The position numbers and the translations under genes were made by a program. A stretch of DNA of 64,000 nucleotides, taken from contig NZ_CP113361.1 in NCBI RefSeq assembly GCF_026684035.1, forward strand, positions 310,001-374,000, read 5' to 3'. Shown here piece after piece: positions 54,328-63,956 of this stretch. This stretch comes from Methanogenium organophilum (GTDB taxonomy: Archaea; Halobacteriota; Methanomicrobia; Methanomicrobiales; Methanomicrobiaceae). Positions within the stretch are counted from its first letter, which is position 1. Every line of letters starts with the position of its first letter. The notes under the pieces are model-generated. The model was not told the DNA's origin. It saw nothing but the letters and a program-made list of their open reading frames with translations, and made no database searches.

Positions 54328-54969
54328 TTAACCCCCAGAACGGACCAATTTTGCTCGTTTTCTTCGAAATAGATCCTCGCGTTCTATTTCTTCAAGATAA
54401 TCTTCAATGTATGCCGCGGTGTTATAGAGCGATGGAATTAAAAGATTTGCAAGTGCGTTAACCCTTCTCCGTGTTATTGTAATCTGGTCTGCAAGACGCA
54501 CAAGAGAGCCTTCTAGTTCTGCAAGAGCGAGAGTTGCCTTCACCGCCGTCTCACATTCCCGGTATGCCACATCCAGATGGGCGGATGGCACGGAAAGCGA
54601 ATACCCCGGCTCGGAGAGATCACGGAAAGGATCAGGGATGAATATGGCAGGAACCGAAGTCCCCATCACCATGCCATTGTCAAATCGGATCTCCTCTGCA
54701 GGTTTTGTCAAAGAAAGTGCTTCGTTCAAACCACGCAGCCCCATTACCATTCCAGCGCGCTGCAGGGGTGGATAAGCGGCAGCAAAGGCTTCTTCAGCAT
54801 CCCTACGCAGGTCTTCACGCATCTCACGGAGACGAAAGAACTCGATCACCATCGTATCCAGTTTCTCCTGCAGAAGTTCATGCCCTTTCTCTGCCACCAC
54901 AATACGTTTTCGAATCTTCAGGAGTTCTATCCGCGTGGGCCGGATTCCACGGATTTTTTGCCTGCTCAC
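54328..54969 (-). CDS. atpD: A-type ATP synthase subunit D
   Basis: A 213-residue central-stalk subunit. Long helices at both ends form the coiled coil that rotates in the A3B3 head ([20 protein letters not shown] with a downstream [28 protein letters not shown]). [10 protein letters not shown] is the family N-terminus. It overlaps the end of atpB by four bases. The tail is basic ([11 protein letters not shown]). Confidence 0.95.
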
Positions 54970-56354
54970 CGCTTGTCACCACCATGATATTTTTCGGTCA
55001 GAACCGTCGGAATCCGGTTGAGTTCTTCCACCGGGAAGGGGTTGAGGAGGTTCCATGCGATGTCCAGACTCTCCGTGATCGTCCGGCCCCTTACACGTCC
55101 CTGGCCGATGAACTCACGTTCAAAACGTTCTGCAAATGTGAGATAGCGACGGTCTGTGTCACTAAGCCCCTCTTCACCGATGACGGCCACAAGGCTCTCC
55201 AGACGCCTGCCCTTTGCATAAGCAGCATAGAGTTGGTCTGAAACAGCACCGTGGTCTTCCCGAGTTTTTTCCTCACCAATGCCACCAGACATCAGACGGG
55301 AAAGAGAAGGAAGGACATCTATAGGCGGATAGATGCCTTTGCGGTACAGGTCTCGTGAGAGGACAATCTGCCCCTCAGTAATATATCCGGTAAGGTCAGG
55401 AACCGGATGGGTGATGTCATCATCCGGCATGGATATGATAGGCAGTTGGGTGATCGAACCCTGTCTTCCGTAAATCCGTCCGGCACGTTCAAAGATGGAC
55501 GCAAGATCCGTATACATATAACCGGGATACCCACGCCGGGCAGGCACCTCATCACGGGCAGCAGAGACCTCACGCAGTGCCTCGCAGTATCCAGTGATGT
55601 CCTGAAGAATGACAAGGATATGCATCCCCCGATCAAAGGCGAGGTATTCTGCAGTGGTCAGGGCAAGGCGGGGGGTTATAATCCGTTCTATAGCGGGGTC
55701 ATCAGCACGGTTAACGAAGAGCACCGCATGCTCCAGTGCACCGGTATCCTCAAATTCATCCAGGAAGAACTGTGCGTCCTCATTTGTTATCCCCATGGCA
55801 CCAAAGACCAGTGCAAACTCCTCATTATCCCTGAGCACACGTGCCTGCCGTGCGATCTGGGCAGCAAGAGCAGAATGCGGCAGACCGGAACCGGAAAATA
55901 TCGGCAGTTTCTGGCCCCGTACAAGAGTGTTCATCCCATCAATTGCCGAGATCCCGGTTTCGATGCAGTCTTCCGGGTAGGCACGGGCCGTCGGATTGAC
56001 CGCCGCACCGGAGATATCCATAACCTTTCCGGGAATCACCGGCCCACCGCCATCCACAGGAGCAGCAGCACCGTCAAACACCCGCCCGAGAATTTCAGGG
56101 CTGACAACCATCTGCATCGGAACACCCATGAACCTGACCGAGGTAATATCCGTGTCGATATCCCGTGTCCCGCCGAATACCTGAATGACGGCAGTATCAG
56201 AACGGCTCTCCAGCACTTCCCCCATGCGCGTCCCTCCACCGGGAAGGCGCACTTCAACAACCTCGCCGTATGCCGCATCACTGACACCGGACACCACCAT
56301 CAGCGGGCCTGCCACCCGGACAACAGACGTGTACTCACGAGAAGGTGATGTCAT
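54966..56354 (-). CDS. atpB: A-type ATP synthase subunit B (non-catalytic)
   Basis: A 462-residue head subunit that alternates with A. Start [36 protein letters not shown], and [20 protein letters not shown], where the Walker A lysine is lost, marking the non-catalytic subunit. [20 protein letters not shown] and [20 protein letters not shown] are characteristic. The ATG at 56354 overlaps the atpA stop (ATGA); longer frames upstream read into atpA. Confidence 0.96.
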
Positions 56355-58114
56355 ACGGTTCCTCCTTCGAGACGATGGAATGCATCTTTCATCTCGCAAA
56401 GGGTCTCCTCAAAATACGTTTTGAAGTCAGCATTTGGAACCGCACCGAGGCGCTTCAGGCGTTGTCCCACCGGGAGCGCTGTGATCACAGAGACCGACAC
56501 GCCGTTCATAACCGCCTCTCTTCCGTATCGGGCATATTCGGTAATGAGTTGCATCATCATATACTGCTTCTCAAACGGACAGAAGGTATCCACCGGATCA
56601 AAGGCATACTGGACAAGGAAAGATTCCCGGACATACTCGGCGATATGCAGAGACAATTTATCCTCCTCGGGCAGGACGTCAGGTCCTACCAGCTGTACAA
56701 TCTCCTCAAGTTCGCTCTCCTTCTGGAGAATCGCCATCATCGTACTGCGCATATCTCCCCACTGATTTCCTGCGTTTTCGTTCCACCAGGCCTCTACATC
56801 ATCCGGATAGAGCGAATAGGACGTGAGCCAGTCAACCGCCGGGAAGTGGCGTTCATGGGCAAGGTCCGCATCCAGCGCCCAGAATACCCGAACAACACGA
56901 AGGGTATTCTGTGTGACGGGTTCAGAAAAGTCACCACCCGGCGGTGAGACAGCACCGATGACAGAGACCGAACCCTCTCTGCCAGACGGCCCAAGGACCG
57001 TCACATGTCCCGCCCGCTCATAAAAACCCGCCAGTCGGGAAGCGAGATAGGCAGGATATCCATGTTCCCCCGGCATCTCTTCAAGCCGTCCGGAGATCTC
57101 CCGCATCGCCTCTGCCCAGCGGGAAGTGGAGTCGGCCATCAGGGCCACATCATAACCCATGTCACGGTAATACTCGGCGATCGTAATGCCGGTATAGACT
57201 GATGCCTCCCGTGCGGCAACCGGCATATTTGATGTGTTGCCGATAAGAACTGTCCTCTCCATCAGAGGAACTCCACTCTTCGGATCTGTGAGAGCAGGGA
57301 ACTGGCGCAATACATCAGCGAGTTCATTGCCCCGTTCCCCACAACCCACATAGATGATAATATCCGCATCCGACCACTTCGCAAGCTGATGCTGCACCAC
57401 TGTCTTGCCTGCCCCAAACGGACCCGGCACCGCAGCAGTTCCACCTTTGACAATCGGGAAGAACGAATCGATGACCCGCTGTCCGGTGAAGAGCGGAGCT
57501 CCGGGTTTTAGTTTTTCTGCAACCGGCCTCTCCTCCCGCACCGGCCAGCGGCGGATCATAGTAACCGGTTCCTCTTTTCCCTCCACGGTGAGAACGATTG
57601 CTATCCCATCTGTCACCGTATACTCCCCGGCATCTGCCACAGAGACAAAAGTGCCCTCTATGCCATGCGGTACAAGGATGGAATGCGTGAACCGCCCTTC
57701 CTGCACAGTCCCGATGACTGTGCCGGGCGTGGCCGCAGTTGATGACTTTGATGTTGGAGTGAATGCGTACTTCCGGTCCCGGTCGAGGGCAGGGAATGAG
57801 GCACCCCGGACAATGAAATCACCCATCCCCTCCCGAATCATCTCCAAAGGGCGCTGTATACCATCATAAACCATACCAAGAAGACCCGGTCCGAGTTCAA
57901 CAGAGAGCGGCGCACCGGTTCGTTCCACCGGTGCACCCGGTGTGAGACCAATGGTGTCCTCATACACCTGGATGGTTGCCACATCCTCCGACAGACCAAT
58001 AATCTCTCCGATCAGGGCAGTCTTTCCCACGTGGACGACCTCATACATGAGTGCCCCCCGCATCCCGTCCGCTTCCACCACCGGCCCGGTGATCCTGATG
58101 ATATTTCCAGTCAC
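56351..58114 (-). CDS. atpA: A-type ATP synthase subunit A (catalytic)
   Basis: A 587-residue catalytic subunit. N-terminal beta barrel ([20 protein letters not shown]), the A-type non-homologous insert near residues 115-190, Walker [15 protein letters not shown], the Walker B/glutamate region [38 protein letters not shown], and the C-terminal helical domain. The length is normal. It overlaps atpF by four bases. Confidence 0.97.
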
Positions 58115-58422
58115 TTCCCTGCCCCCGGCATATGCCTCCCGGCAACTTTCCTGACAGCTATACTCACGGCATCCTCACCACGAATTGGGCCACCCGGACC
58201 GGGAATTCCGATGACTACCGGATATACTCCCTGTGAGGGAGGGAGAGGAATCTCTTTCAGATACCGATCCAGCACACAGATCACACCCACATCGGGGCGC
58301 TCAAGCACCTCTTCCAGGGCCCAGCGAGCCTCCTCTGCATCCTGACAGACGATGCCTTCGGATATCCCCCCGGCCCTGCAGGCAAATACCGCCATATGAT
58401 CGCCAATCGCGATGATCTTCAC
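58111..58422 (-). CDS. atpF: A-type ATP synthase subunit F
   Basis: A 103-residue central-stalk subunit with a Rossmann-like fold: KIIAIGDHMAVFACRAGGIS, VGVICVLDRYLKEI, VYPVVIGIPGPGGPIRGEDA. It binds subunit D and the head. It overlaps both atpC and atpA by four bases, consistent with one polycistronic mRNA. Confidence 0.94.
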   Translation of the reverse strand: MKIIAIGDHMAVFACRAGGISEGIVCQDAEEARWALEEVLERPDVGVICVLDRYLKEIPLPPSQGVYPVVIGIPGPGGPIRGEDAVSIAVRKVAGRHMPGAGK

Positions 58423-59609
58423 TCTTTCACCTCTTCTGTCACAAGCACCCGTCCAATCTCTTCCGGAGGGAGTGACTCGGCAATTCCCACCGCTATTGCC
58501 TGCATATTCTGCGCCTCGTAGCCAAGTGTTACAAGATACCGAAGAAGCGGGCCACTCTCCAGATGATATTGATTAGATACCGCACGGACAACATCAAGCA
58601 TGCACAGGTCGAGAGCTGCTTCAAGCACGGGAATGTCCTCATCCTTCACTGCATCCGGATGGCGGGAGAGATATGGCTCGTACGTTGTCCCCACAAGCGC
58701 CTGAATCAGATCCGGCAGGGATCCAGCACGGATAGCATGGTTCAACCGGTCACCGCTAAGTTCAAATCCCCCTTCCAGGATAAGATAACGAGCGACGGAT
58801 TCCTTTCCCGCTCCAACAGAGAGAGAACGGGCCAGTGACCGGATGTTTGCAATATCAATCATCCGACCGGCCACCTCTGTTACCGGCGGCGAGAGAGAAA
58901 TGTCCACACTCTGTGCCGCGAGGGAAATATTTTCAAGGAGAGCGATCTGCACCAGGGCAAAGAACTGTGCATGGTCACCTGCTGCCTCACGGTATGCTGC
59001 AGCAAGCACAGGACCAAATGGTGCCGGAGCAAATCTGCTGAGAGCATCCTCAGGCCCCGCAGCATGAACCGCCGTGCGGATCATCTCAGGGGTCAATGAC
59101 CCGACAGAGGAAACCTGCCGCTCAATGTCTGCGGGGGAGACATCCCCCCCCATACTAAGAATGATCCATGCAGCCTCCCGTGCCGCAAGCATATCCCTGT
59201 ATGCTGCAAAGAAGTGACTCACACTGTCCGGGACATTTTCAGTAAGGCTTACCACCCTCCCGTAATAATAGCCGCGGATAGTCTGTTCTGCAATCTCAAT
59301 ATTCATCTCTCCTACAGATGGAAAGGCGTACCCGGCAGCCCGGAAACGGTCGAAGAGATCATGCAGGGAATGTGCCTCACGTACGACCGAGACCGTCGCC
59401 CATTCCACCATAGGGTTGCCAATCGCCCGCACCCGTGCATCCGGCCTGGCAAACACCGCAATATTCAGGATGACACGGAAGTATCCGGCCGATGCCGCAA
59501 GCACCAGGCCCATGAGAATTGCAATAGCAAGGGCTGCAACCAAAAGAGCCGTGCCGCCGTCTCCTGAGAGGAGTCCTGAGAATATCGGGGAGAGAGAAAA
59601 GTCAGTCAT
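58419..59609 (-). CDS. atpC: A-type ATP synthase subunit C with N-terminal membrane helix
   Basis: A 396-residue funnel-shaped subunit (V-type d homolog) that couples the central stalk to the rotor ring. Residues from about 60 show AC39-like helices in three repeats (MVEWATVSVVREAHSLHDLF; DIANIRSLARSLSVGAGKES; LLRYLVTLGYEAQNMQAIAV). Unlike the usual soluble form of about 360 residues, it begins with a hydrophobic segment at residues 21-43 (ALLVAALAIAILMGLVLAAS), a likely membrane helix. The ATG at 59609 overlaps atpE by eight bases; even a later start keeps this segment. Confidence 0.9.
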   Translation of the reverse strand: MTDFSLSPIFSGLLSGDGGTALLVAALAIAILMGLVLAASAGYFRVILNIAVFARPDARVRAIGNPMVEWATVSVVREAHSLHDLFDRFRAAGYAFPSVGEMNIEIAEQTIRGYYYGRVVSLTENVPDSVSHFFAAYRDMLAAREAAWIILSMGGDVSPADIERQVSSVGSLTPEMIRTAVHAAGPEDALSRFAPAPFGPVLAAAYREAAGDHAQFFALVQIALLENISLAAQSVDISLSPPVTEVAGRMIDIANIRSLARSLSVGAGKESVARYLILEGGFELSGDRLNHAIRAGSLPDLIQALVGTTYEPYLSRHPDAVKDEDIPVLEAALDLCMLDVVRAVSNQYHLESGPLLRYLVTLGYEAQNMQAIAVGIAESLPPEEIGRVLVTEEVKE

Positions 59610-60198
59610 TGCCACCATACAGTATACACGCGGTTTCACGGGTCAGGCGCTCACGCATTCGTTCACATCTGGCTGAAAACCGCTGATCACACAGGCGACT
59701 TCCGCAGGCGACCACAAGGCCGCCACCCCTCCGGTCTCTGCTCATCTCCTGAAGGAAGGCCATGCCAATTCCCGGAAATTCCGCGAGGGCCGATTCTACG
59801 GCATCCCGATCTCCCTCCCGAAAGAGCACCTGACACTCACCGGGTCCAACGATCTCCAGTCCCTCCGCAATGAGTCGCTGTAACACTTCCGGATATATTG
59901 GCATACCGGGAAGATGAGAGAGTTGCTCTTTTGCACCGGAAAAACACCTGTCGATGCCGTCTTCGCGTGCCTCCCGCACCCCGCCCCGTGCCGCAAGCTG
60001 TGCCCGTGCAAGAATCTTCCGGCGCCGTGCCGCAGCCTCCCGCCTGCCATCATCAGAGATGGTTGTGTATACCGCATCTGCTGCAATTTCGCCCTCACTG
60101 AGGATAAGGGACACCTCATTGTCTGCCGCACGAATGATACGGGTAGCTTCCTCAGCTGCATCCGCATTCATCCGTGCAATGATCTCTTCCACACCCAT
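59602..60198 (-). CDS. atpE: A-type ATP synthase subunit E (peripheral stalk)
   Basis: A 198-residue peripheral-stalk protein. The N-terminal half is a long Ala/Arg/Glu-rich helix (EEIIARMNADAAEEATRIIR; RREAAARRRKILARAQLAAR) that pairs with subunit H. The C-terminal globular domain has YPEVLQRLIAEGLEIV and CQVLFREGDRDAVESAL, ending DQRFSARCERMRERLTRETA. The atpK stop lies one base before its start. Confidence 0.92.
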   Translation of the reverse strand: MGVEEIIARMNADAAEEATRIIRAADNEVSLILSEGEIAADAVYTTISDDGRREAAARRRKILARAQLAARGGVREAREDGIDRCFSGAKEQLSHLPGMPIYPEVLQRLIAEGLEIVGPGECQVLFREGDRDAVESALAEFPGIGMAFLQEMSRDRRGGGLVVACGSRLCDQRFSARCERMRERLTRETACILYGGND

Positions 60199-61647
60199 TC
60201 ACCCACCTCCGAAGAGTCCGATACCGAACATAATGAGGACGGCAATAAGGAGCCCGAATATCGCAAAGGTCTCTGCCATCACGGCAAATACGAGGCTTGC
60301 CCCCATCGCATCACTCCGCTGTGCTGTGGCTCCAATACCCGAGGCGGCAGTCATACCCTGCCCGATGGCTGAAAGACCGGCAAGGCCAACGGCAAACCCG
60401 GCCCCCATTGCGGCAAGTCCTGCAGCGGCCGTTGCCGTGACATCGCGGGTGATCATGCCAGTGAAGGCCATCACGAGGATCGCCACCAGAAGACCATAGA
60501 TAGCCTGTGTCTCGGGAATAACGGTAAAAACCAATGCCTTCCCAAACATTTCCTCTTTTTCAGCGGTGGCAGCAATGCCTGCCGAAGCCGCAATACCCTG
60601 ACCAATTGCAGAAATTCCGGCAAATCCAACAGCGAACCCACAGGCAATGGCGGCAAATCCTGCGGCAAGGGTTGCGGTGAGATCCCGGGTGATCATACCG
60701 GTAAAGACCATCAGAAGAATCGCAACCAACAGGCCATATATGGCCTGTGTCTCGGGGATAACCGAAAACACCAGGTTCTTCCCGAACGTTCCCTCATGCT
60801 CGGCAGTGGTTGCCGTACCCGCCGCAGCGGCGATCCCCTGCCCAATGGCAGAGATTCCGGCAAGGCCAACGGCAAATCCACACCCAATGGCGGCAAAGCC
60901 GAGGGCAAGGTCTGCAGAAGGTTCACCTGCGATCATTCCGGTAAAGGCCATGATGAGAATCGCAATCAGCAGACCATATATGGCCTGCGTTTCCGGGATA
61001 ACCGAGAATACAAGATTCTTCCCAAAACTCTCCTCATGCTCGGCAGATGCAGCCGACCCTGCGGCGGCGGCGATCCCCTGCCCAATGGCAGAGAGACCCG
61101 CAATTCCCACCGCAAGACCACATCCAATAGCAGCAAGACCGGTTGCCTCAGTGGCCGTCGCATCCCCCGTCAGAAGTCCGGTGAAAGCCATGATGAGAAT
61201 CGCAACCAGCAGACCATATATGGCCTGTGTCTCGGGGATAACCGAAAAGATGAGACTTCGCCCCATCGCGGAGTCATGTTCTGTGGTGGCCGCAATGCCT
61301 GCAGAGGCTGCGATTCCCTGCCCGATGGCAGAGAAACCGGCGATGCCCGTTGCGAGGCCAGCACCTACGGCAGCAAGGCCAAGGGGAAGGGGCACCTCTC
61401 CCCCTCCACCGCCGATGATACCGGTTGCAAGCAGGATAAGGACGGCAACCAGAAGGCCATACATCCCCTGGGTCTGTGGCACCGCCTGGAAGACCAGTGC
61501 CCGCCCAAACTTCTCCGGGCGGACCGCAATGACCCCTGCACCGGTGGCTCCTGCAATCCCTACGCCAATACCTGACCCGATGGCGGAGAGTCCGACGGCA
61601 AGCCCTGCTCCCGTCACAGCGAGAATGGTACCTGCATCAACGGCCAT
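60199..61647 (-). CDS. atpK: A-type ATP synthase rotor subunit K (c) with six fused hairpins
   Basis: A 482-residue proteolipid made of six two-helix hairpins (12 membrane helices). Hairpins 2-6 repeat every 80 residues exactly: inner-helix Gln at 110, 190, 270, 350, 430 (SAIGQG) and outer-helix Glu at 139, 219, 299, 379, 459 (PETQAIYG; AETFAIFG in the last). Hairpin 1 has Val29 and Gln58 (PQTQGMYG) at these positions, so no ion ligand. Most archaeal K subunits have one to three hairpins; Methanopyrus has 13. The ATG at 61647 with GGAGGG upstream is chosen; upstream in-frame residues lie inside atpI, which it overlaps by 11 bases. Confidence 0.95.
   Translation of the reverse strand: MAVDAGTILAVTGAGLAVGLSAIGSGIGVGIAGATGAGVIAVRPEKFGRALVFQAVPQTQGMYGLLVAVLILLATGIIGGGGGEVPLPLGLAAVGAGLATGIAGFSAIGQGIAASAGIAATTEHDSAMGRSLIFSVIPETQAIYGLLVAILIMAFTGLLTGDATATEATGLAAIGCGLAVGIAGLSAIGQGIAAAAGSAASAEHEESFGKNLVFSVIPETQAIYGLLIAILIMAFTGMIAGEPSADLALGFAAIGCGFAVGLAGISAIGQGIAAAAGTATTAEHEGTFGKNLVFSVIPETQAIYGLLVAILLMVFTGMITRDLTATLAAGFAAIACGFAVGFAGISAIGQGIAASAGIAATAEKEEMFGKALVFTVIPETQAIYGLLVAILVMAFTGMITRDVTATAAAGLAAMGAGFAVGLAGLSAIGQGMTAASGIGATAQRSDAMGASLVFAVMAETFAIFGLLIAVLIMFGIGLFGGG
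60241..61480 (-). repeat. 240-bp tandem repeats within atpK
   Basis: The hairpin units recur at nucleotide level with a period of 240 bases. The same anchor sequence (plus strand AGACCATATATGGCCTG and variants) occurs just after 60481, 60721, 60961 and 61201, with a more divergent copy 243 bases further on and a degenerate one near 60241. The middle four copies are most alike. The repeat is coding throughout and keeps frame. Confidence 0.85.
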
Positions 61648-63610
61648 CGCTTCCCTCCTGTGGTCGGGTATGCTTCCGCTGGGCGGCGAAGGGGGAGAAG
61701 GGCCTGCCGCCCGCATCAAAGAACCTGCCGAAAAACTCTACATACTGGAGACGAAGTGCGTGAATGAATCCTCCAAGGCACTGAAGAACCAGATTTGCTG
61801 CATGACCACCCACGGCGAAAAGGACACCTGCAATGACAAAGACCGGTCCCGCTCCGGCAATCATGACGGAGAGGATATTGATCATCATCGCAATGCCGCC
61901 GGTGGCAAGGGCAAGTGCAAGGATACGGGAATAACTGAGCCAGTCGCCGAGGTAACCGGTGATTGAGAAGAACCCAAGCGGACCGTTACTCCGGAGAATA
62001 CCCGCAATAGCGACAATGGCACCACCCCATGCAAGAGTGAAAATAAGAGGCGGAAATGCCGCCCACCCAAAGAATGAGAGGATGAGGACTGTGGCACAGG
62101 GCTGGAGCAGAAACCAGGTGCCCTCCGAATAAAGCATCCTTTTTTGTTCACCGAGACGGAGGTGTTCATATGCAGCAATTCCCAGACCGAGGTTGAGATG
62201 GGCAATTCCTATCACGAGCGCCAGAATGAGCAGAGACAGGGGATCGTTCAGGGGTTCAATGATCGTAAACGGCATGCTAATGTCGAAGAGTGACGGAAGA
62301 TTACCAAAGAAACTGCCCATCAAAAGGCCAAAGAACGTGCCCGCAACACCGCAGGCACAGAGAACGACGGCCAGATCATGGGCGGTGCCCGGCGTACGGC
62401 CAACCCCCCGAAGGAGGAATGCAGCAATAAGTAGGAGAAGGAGGCCATACCCGGCATCTCCGAGCATGAGACCAAACGTGAAGACCAATACCGGGGCAAG
62501 GAACAGAGTCGGGTCAATTTTGCCGTATGAAGGCATACCGAACATGGCGGTGAGAAACCCGTACGGTGCCAGCCAGCGGGGATGGTCAAAGGCAGACGGG
62601 ATGTCACCGGCGGCGGGTTCCGTGGTGCAGAAGGTGAGGCCGCCTGCCGAATGGTTGCAGAGTGCCTGTATTCGCGGCAGGTCACGTTTTTTTGTCCACC
62701 CCTGCATGACAACAAGGGACCCGGTTTCACCAAAAAGCGGGGAGGCATCCTCACGTTCCCGCATGACCGACAGTTCCTCTGCCATCGCTTCAAGCGGCGC
62801 AAGATGCCTCCGGGCGATATCTTCAAGGGATGCACGAATCTTGTTTTGTTCCTTCCTGAGACGGTCTCTTTCGCTCTGAATTCTCACAATTCCTGCCGAT
62901 GCCGTACCCTCCGTTGTCTCCGGGACAAACTCCCGGAATGCCAGTGCCCGAAGCACCCGGTCTGTTTCAGCGACTGCATCAGGGTGCATAATGGTTACGA
63001 CGGTTGCCAAGCGGTCTCCCACGCCGCAGAGGAGAAATGGCACGGCAAGAACCGGTATCTCTTCTCGCAGATGCGCCTCAATATCTGCGCATTCACCTAG
63101 GGAAATTATCCCGGCACGCACCTCCAGAAGGCCCCCCATACCAAGCCTGCCGGGTTCGATGCCAAAAGGAATCAGCAGGCGGAGCATCTCTTCCTCATCA
63201 TCAAGTCGTGCCAGACGTTCAGTGGAGGCAGTATCACGGGCATGCAGGGTAAGTATGACATCTGTTATTTCTGAGAAACTGGCCGCTTCATCAAGAGCTG
63301 ATGCGGCATCACTGACCGGGAATCGATATCTTTCATCTTCCGGGCGGGCAAACAGTTTAAGAAACGGATTTTTCTCCGGGATGTGCACTCTAAGAATCTC
63401 AATAGCCCGTTCAATACGGGATCGGGCCTCTGCAAGATCAGGAACAGCCGACGAACGCCGGCACGGAATAAGGAGAGGAAGAAGCTCTGTCTCATCTGCA
63501 ATCGCACGGAGTTCAACCACTCCGGCCTCGTGCAGGGCGGAGATCATCGTCTCCCGCACGGTGGTGTGCACCCCTACCGTAAGACGTACCATCTCAGCGG
63601 GTCTGATCAT
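61637..63610 (-). CDS. atpI: A-type ATP synthase subunit I (a-subunit homolog)
   Basis: A 657-residue stator subunit. The N-terminal soluble arm (about residues 1-330) has coiled-coil stretches (RIQSERDRLRKEQNKIRASL) and begins MIRPAEMVRLTVGVH. The C-terminal part has about seven or eight membrane helices: TFGLMLGDAGYGLLLLLIAA, and the conserved SYSRILALALATGGIAMMIN, whose Arg faces the rotor Glu, and GGFIHALRLQYVEFFGRFFD. It overlaps atpH by 17 bases and atpK by 11. Confidence 0.95.
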   Translation of the reverse strand: MIRPAEMVRLTVGVHTTVRETMISALHEAGVVELRAIADETELLPLLIPCRRSSAVPDLAEARSRIERAIEILRVHIPEKNPFLKLFARPEDERYRFPVSDAASALDEAASFSEITDVILTLHARDTASTERLARLDDEEEMLRLLIPFGIEPGRLGMGGLLEVRAGIISLGECADIEAHLREEIPVLAVPFLLCGVGDRLATVVTIMHPDAVAETDRVLRALAFREFVPETTEGTASAGIVRIQSERDRLRKEQNKIRASLEDIARRHLAPLEAMAEELSVMREREDASPLFGETGSLVVMQGWTKKRDLPRIQALCNHSAGGLTFCTTEPAAGDIPSAFDHPRWLAPYGFLTAMFGMPSYGKIDPTLFLAPVLVFTFGLMLGDAGYGLLLLLIAAFLLRGVGRTPGTAHDLAVVLCACGVAGTFFGLLMGSFFGNLPSLFDISMPFTIIEPLNDPLSLLILALVIGIAHLNLGLGIAAYEHLRLGEQKRMLYSEGTWFLLQPCATVLILSFFGWAAFPPLIFTLAWGGAIVAIAGILRSNGPLGFFSITGYLGDWLSYSRILALALATGGIAMMINILSVMIAGAGPVFVIAGVLFAVGGHAANLVLQCLGGFIHALRLQYVEFFGRFFDAGGRPFSPFAAQRKHTRPQEGSDGR

Positions 63611-63956
63611 GGCCGGTCACCTCCCTGACAACATAAGTAATGGCTTCATCAATCCGTTTATCAGTCACATCCCGAATGGCCACAATCTCCTCTTCAGCCG
63701 CCGCACGAATTGATTCCGCTTCCGCCGCCGCCTCCTGTTCCACGGCAGCGATGTGTACTGCTGCTTCAGCCCCGGCTCGCTCTCTGGCAGCTGCTTCTTT
63801 TGTCTGGGCATCGGCATGGGCTTTCCGTATGCGATTATCCGCCTCTGTGCGTGCCCGCTCAATTTCTGCCAGCGCTGCCGCTTCTGCCTCCCGAATACGA
63901 ATGATCTCCTCGAATGGCACACAGACCCCCCGTGTCTTGATATCTCCCGCAGTCAT
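63594..63956 (-). CDS. atpH: A-type ATP synthase subunit H (peripheral stalk)
   Basis: A 120-residue, nearly all-helical Ala/Glu-rich protein (IRIREAEAAALAEIERARTE; AAVEQEAAAEAESIRAAAEE) forming a coiled coil with subunit E in the peripheral stalk. It is the first gene of the operon, as in Methanosarcina mazei (ahaH). The 44 bases beyond its ATG reach the window edge; a promoter is expected there or just outside. Confidence 0.88.
   Translation of the reverse strand: MTAGDIKTRGVCVPFEEIIRIREAEAAALAEIERARTEADNRIRKAHADAQTKEAAARERAGAEAAVHIAAVEQEAAAEAESIRAAAEEEIVAIRDVTDKRIDEAITYVVREVTGHDQTR

Follow-up and report, generated by a model that had tools for sequence, protein, structure and literature searches.

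The number of live sites in the membrane ring of a rotary ATPase sets the ions moved per ATP. In the V-type Na+-ATPase of Enterococcus hirae, sodium is held in the rotor subunit NtpK by L61, T64, Q65, Q110 and E139, with Y68 holding E139 (PMC10382590), and this tyrosine is recognised as the Glu139-stabilising residue (PMC10382590, PMC2359735). Multi-hairpin K subunits, the sharing of ligands across hairpins and the loss of sites after duplication have already been published, as has the triplicated-hairpin K of Methanocaldococcus jannaschii (PMC2359735). For the Methanomicrobiales, ProAD lists eight genera with H+- and Na+-A-ATPases and recognises multi-hairpin K (PMC11738941); its Na+-A-ATPases of this order are very probably the same enzymes as the one described below for Methanogenium.

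The operon and sodium sites of the six-hairpin K

The window, the whole 64,000-nucleotide stretch of Methanogenium organophilum DNA analysed here, contains on its minus strand a gene (60199..61647; start ATG at 61645-61647, stop TGA at 60199-60201) for a K (c) subunit of 482 residues, with six transmembrane hairpins of about 80 residues each (a DNA repeat period of 240 nucleotides) and, from its open reading frame and ligand map, five complete sodium sites. Its best NCBIfam model is NF004913 (V-type ATP synthase subunit K), scoring 568 bits against a cut-off of 211, and this score, together with its position inside an A/V-ATPase operon, identifies it as an A/V-type ATPase subunit K. The operon, identified with NCBIfam models, runs H-I-K-E-C-F-A-B-D, all on the minus strand: an H-like peripheral stalk gene (63594..63956; NF006256, E 1.7e-5, below cut-off), subunit I (a, the stator, 657 residues; 61637..63610), K itself, subunits E (59602..60198), C (58419..59639) and F (58111..58422), the catalytic subunit A (56351..58114; TIGR01043, 909 bits), and subunits B (54966..56399; TIGR01041, 742 bits) and D (54328..54969). 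The same genome carries a second A-ATPase operon at C1:985 kb (L005, L063), whose K (G000:C1:985511-985759) is an ordinary single hairpin reading Q:PETV, without the outer Gln. Both stator arginines of subunit I, Arg562 and Arg620, are conserved relative to the genome's second copy. By the published motif (PMC2359735), the ATPase of the window is predicted to be sodium-type and that of the second operon proton-type.

Site positions were read with a hairpin HMM after aligning the six hairpins, and the codons were checked. Each site lies between two neighbouring hairpins, j-1 and j: the outer helix of j-1 provides Thr, Gln and Tyr, while j provides Gln and Glu. Written as inner residue followed by the P-E-T-Q motif, the chain reads V:PQTQ, then Q:PETQ four times, then Q:AETF. 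Hairpin 1 (residues 1-85; 61393..61647, minus strand as for all that follow) is the V:PQTQ copy, lacking Glu and inner Gln, and gives Thr59, Gln60 and Tyr63 to site 2. The four Q:PETQ copies are hairpins 2 (residues 86-165; 61153..61392; Gln110/Glu139), 3 (166-245; 60913..61152; Gln190/Glu219), 4 (246-325; 60673..60912; Gln270/Glu299) and 5 (326-405; 60433..60672; Gln350/Glu379). Hairpin 6 (406-482; 60202..60432), the Q:AETF copy, keeps Gln430 and Glu459 and has Phe461 and Phe464 for the outer Gln and Tyr. Sites 2 to 6 thus contain Gln, Glu, Thr, Gln and Tyr throughout, so that the preliminary description was right to count five complete sites per six hairpins, each with the full NtpK-type set. 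This full ligand set at the live sites is the Na+-specific K motif of Mulkidjanian (2008).

At the remaining site, between hairpin 6 and hairpin 1, Gln, Glu, Gln and Tyr are replaced by Val29 (codon GTA, 61561..61563, inner Gln lost), Gln58 (CAG, 61474..61476, carboxylate lost), Phe461 (TTT, 60265..60267, outer Gln lost) and Phe464 (TTC, 60256..60258, Glu-stabilising Tyr lost). The first three had been placed correctly from the outset, and the dead site does fall exactly where the chain ends would meet. The accompanying statement that all ligands are lost there stands for Gln, Glu and Gln, and the loss extends to the overlooked tyrosine (Phe464), but it is overstated because Thr460, the equivalent of NtpK Thr64, is retained. 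This dead site, referred to below as the seam, is organised as in NtpK, the first hairpin lacking Glu and inner Gln while supplying Thr-Gln, and the last lacking the outer Gln; the number of hairpins per chain, six rather than two, departs from the NtpK type. The AlphaFold model of the whole chain (pLDDT 92.2, pTM 0.91) has 2bl2_A as its best PDB match in Foldseek, with 150 columns, one NtpK subunit, fitting at 1.1 A; a fit of that length is compatible with an NtpK-like curvature but too short to fix the ring size.

Conservation and origin of the seam

Relatives were gathered from named genomes and by searching at the level of genus, order and phylum, which also took in the phyla to which several further matches belong. 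The scored set comprised 148 complete proteins, 92 with two hairpins (NtpK included), 13 with three, four with four and 39 with six; the scoring left out genes that were truncated, four Desulfobacterota proteins belonging to a different type, and the all-Gln protein L107. Complete proteins with five or seven hairpins were absent from these 148, in which N takes only the values 2, 3, 4 and 6. At the boundary site Gln, Glu, Gln and Tyr are all lost in 148 of 148, and the boundary Thr is kept in 139; in the same proteins 323 of 325 internal sites are complete. The contrast exceeds what chance would give, although the count is over related sequences rather than independent trials. Random combinations of Gln29, Glu58 and Gln461 in homologs, named beforehand as the result that would speak against a coordinated loss, were seen in none of the 148 relatives. 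Replacing residues do vary in the two-hairpin forms (V/L/I/T/M/C; Q/M/G/C/F; F/M/Y/I/P and others), and what is kept is therefore the dead state and not particular letters. Judged from these sequences, a chain of N hairpins has N-1 sites in the K lineage sampled. The sample consists of proteins similar to Methanogenium K, and the complete multi-hairpin K of Methanopyrus kandleri and M. thermautotrophicus, which lack a dead seam (13 of 13 and 2 of 2 sites, respectively; PMC2359735), fall outside it, so that the N-1 rule applies to the sampled lineage and not to all K.

The coordinated loss had been pictured as three independent positions degenerating together in Methanogenium, and here the survey points elsewhere, since the same seam is present in NtpK (V:PGTQ / Q:VETY) and in all two-hairpin relatives. 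In a hairpin tree (120 hairpins, ligand columns removed, 68 columns, branch supports low) a branch with support 76 has all first hairpins, whatever their N, on the same side; the last hairpins come nearly together (3 changes, where shuffling gives a mean of 29), and the middle hairpins form other groups. On a tree of first and last hairpins, N changes at least six times among 2, 3, 4 and 6. At the level of sequence, then, the seam is ancestral, a single inherited state with complete hairpins gained or lost between fixed ends at least six times, because NtpK and every two-hairpin relative share it and the first and last hairpins are positionally homologous across hairpin numbers. A complete six-site polypeptide that lost three ligands together at its boundary within the Methanogenium lineage, as originally envisaged, is accordingly hard to credit and very improbable. 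It is possible in principle, in that complete multi-hairpin K exist elsewhere (M. kandleri, PMC2359735), and local co-loss does occur at internal junctions: at h3-h4 of two six-hairpin proteins (L161/L162; G552, G586) inner Gln, outer Gln and Tyr are lost and Glu is kept, and at h5-h6 of G400 Glu, Gln and Tyr are replaced by Gln, His and Ser, respectively. These two rare junctions support a coupled decay of ligands. However, the identical seam in 92 two-, 13 three- and four four-hairpin relatives and in NtpK, and the grouping of first hairpins across N, both argue against a loss confined to one lineage.

The reading we prefer, at a probability of about 0.82, is that an NtpK-type two-hairpin K was lengthened by complete hairpins inserted between its original ends, giving the rotor of a second, sodium-type A/V-ATPase. 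The starting form would have been a two-hairpin K with one live site between its hairpins and one dead seam between chains; the direction from two hairpins to more is suggested by breadth of distribution rather than by a rooted tree. Inner helices of the middle hairpins are last-like in 96-100% (N=3, N=6) or 88% (N=4), and the middle hairpins match the first at the site-facing outer positions Pro53, Gln56 and Tyr59 of the hairpin model, a combination expected if the liveness of the facing site shapes each helix. Two simple routes to the middle copies were considered. Clean unequal crossing-over between h2 and h1 is not shown, the inner helix being last-like but the outer helix a mosaic. Wholesale repeat homogenisation is rejected for this gene, since its middle copies are only 65-73% identical in DNA and several same-index hairpins group across genera. 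In the archaeon UBA543 (L022) the middle hairpins alternate, 2 resembling 4 and 3 resembling 5, which suggests enlargement by copying of a two-hairpin block and perhaps a separate origin of six.

Under the insertion reading the seam would persist because reviving it takes about four changes at once, spread over several helices and each of no use by itself. A seam selected for a purpose, such as chain pairing, docking of the central-stalk subunit C or a pause at the stator, is a doubtful alternative: it would be in keeping with a seam conserved without exception through long times while N changed at least six times, and with residues that are mostly hydrophobic here (Val, Phe, Phe) and fit for tight packing, but a seam that can be revived only by several changes at once should be conserved just as well, and no seam-marking residue has been shown outside the site.

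Several other K loci depart from the common pattern. The open reading frames of L161 and L162 reach about 120 residues upstream of hairpin 1. The Thermococci-like genome G400 (L023/L117, L124/L191) has a half-dead junction inside a K array that spans two contigs and counts at least eight hairpins, a lower bound because of a frameshift and of repeat assembly; an apparent five-hairpin K in this genome (L023) was discarded, as it reflects that frameshift and a contig end and joins with contig C62 in the longer array. In a member of the Halobacteriota (L107, G016) two K genes are adjacent, the first a single hairpin of 77 residues with a complete sodium site (Q:PETQ), the second the three-hairpin protein in which Gln stands for all three Glu (T:PQTQ, N:PQTQ, N:PQTQ), and the pair resembles a rotor made from two genes, in which blank units serve as filler. 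In the phylum of the Desulfobacterota-like genome G401, four- and five-hairpin K (L231, L236, L240, L241) mostly have Gln for Glu in their inner hairpins (xQTP) and adjoin a single-hairpin gene (E:SEST) with an extra acidic residue in its inner helix; these loci may encode mixed rotors whose sites have two carboxylates, opposite to what is seen in the window.

Rotor mechanics and ring size

The six-hairpin chains would close head to tail into a ring with five Na+ sites and one blank per six hairpins. At the seam the stator arginine would meet no carboxylate, and the ring would take one two-hairpin step per chain, a double step that is mechanically possible because NtpK rings step two hairpins at every site. 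Raising N from 2 to 6 would lift the live fraction from 1/2 to 5/6 and, depending on ring size, shift a pump-like rotor towards synthase gearing, and a higher live fraction would favour the making of ATP when the sodium-motive force is low. With its fixed dead seam and one to five live sites per chain, the family offers a natural series (1/2, 2/3, 3/4, 5/6), a measure of how gearing evolves and of how a motor runs when one tooth is missing. Ring size, if known, would give the coupling ratio for the sodium ATP synthase of methanogens that live close to the energy limit.

Rings of 12, 18 or 24 hairpins would carry 10, 15 or 20 ions per turn. The preliminary description proposed two chains, hence 12 hairpins, 10 Na+ and 3.3 per ATP, an arrangement compatible with the insertion reading that we hold as tentative, at somewhat poorer than even odds. 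Hairpin numbers in complete proteins (2, 3, 4 and 6, with no 5 or 7) all divide 12, which favours 12 or 24 hairpins provided that the whole family has one ring size; ring size may, however, differ between N. Against two chains, the closest solved ring, that of E. hirae, has ten two-hairpin NtpK subunits, i.e., 20 hairpins (PMC10382590), with a Na+/ATP of 3.3 (PMC10382590, PMC12018189), and the Methanogenium model superposes on one of these subunits at 1.1 A. This similarity favours a ring near 20 hairpins, and among multiples of six 18 and 24 come closest to that. Since the nearest solved ring has 20 hairpins, three copies, with 15 ions and 5 per ATP, would be no less plausible than two. That three chains (18 hairpins) set their dead seams at intervals of 120 degrees, aligned with the three catalytic sites, and move exactly 5 Na+ per ATP, is a more specific and unlikely proposal; if true, the membrane ring and the catalytic head would have no symmetry mismatch, and each change of N would amount to a shift of gear in evolution, with the seam built in.

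Comparison with known systems

What appears to be new here is the N-1 rule; multi-hairpin K and sodium A-ATPases in Methanomicrobiales were known already. The main text of ProAD (PMC11738941), in the portion considered, neither describes a six-hairpin form nor mentions a 5/6 count or a seam rule, and literature searches, with most subscription literature outside their range, returned no six-hairpin, five-site K or strict N-1 rule. Among described systems, M. kandleri K resembles that of Methanogenium in its many fused hairpins and sodium ligands, but its 13 hairpins all carry complete sites and form a one-chain rotor with no dead seam (PMC2359735). The K of M. jannaschii has three hairpins and the length of NF004913 (220 residues), and its genome is among the control genomes matching that model. 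Gln reportedly replaces the carboxylate in its first hairpin (Ruppert et al. 1999). Closest of all is NtpK (PDB 2bl2), the rotor subunit of the E. hirae V-type Na+-ATPase, which shares with Methanogenium K both the ligand set and the seam, its first hairpin having Val for the inner Gln and no Glu, and its last an aromatic residue for Gln; the two differ in that NtpK has two hairpins and one site per chain, whereas Methanogenium K has six hairpins and five sites.
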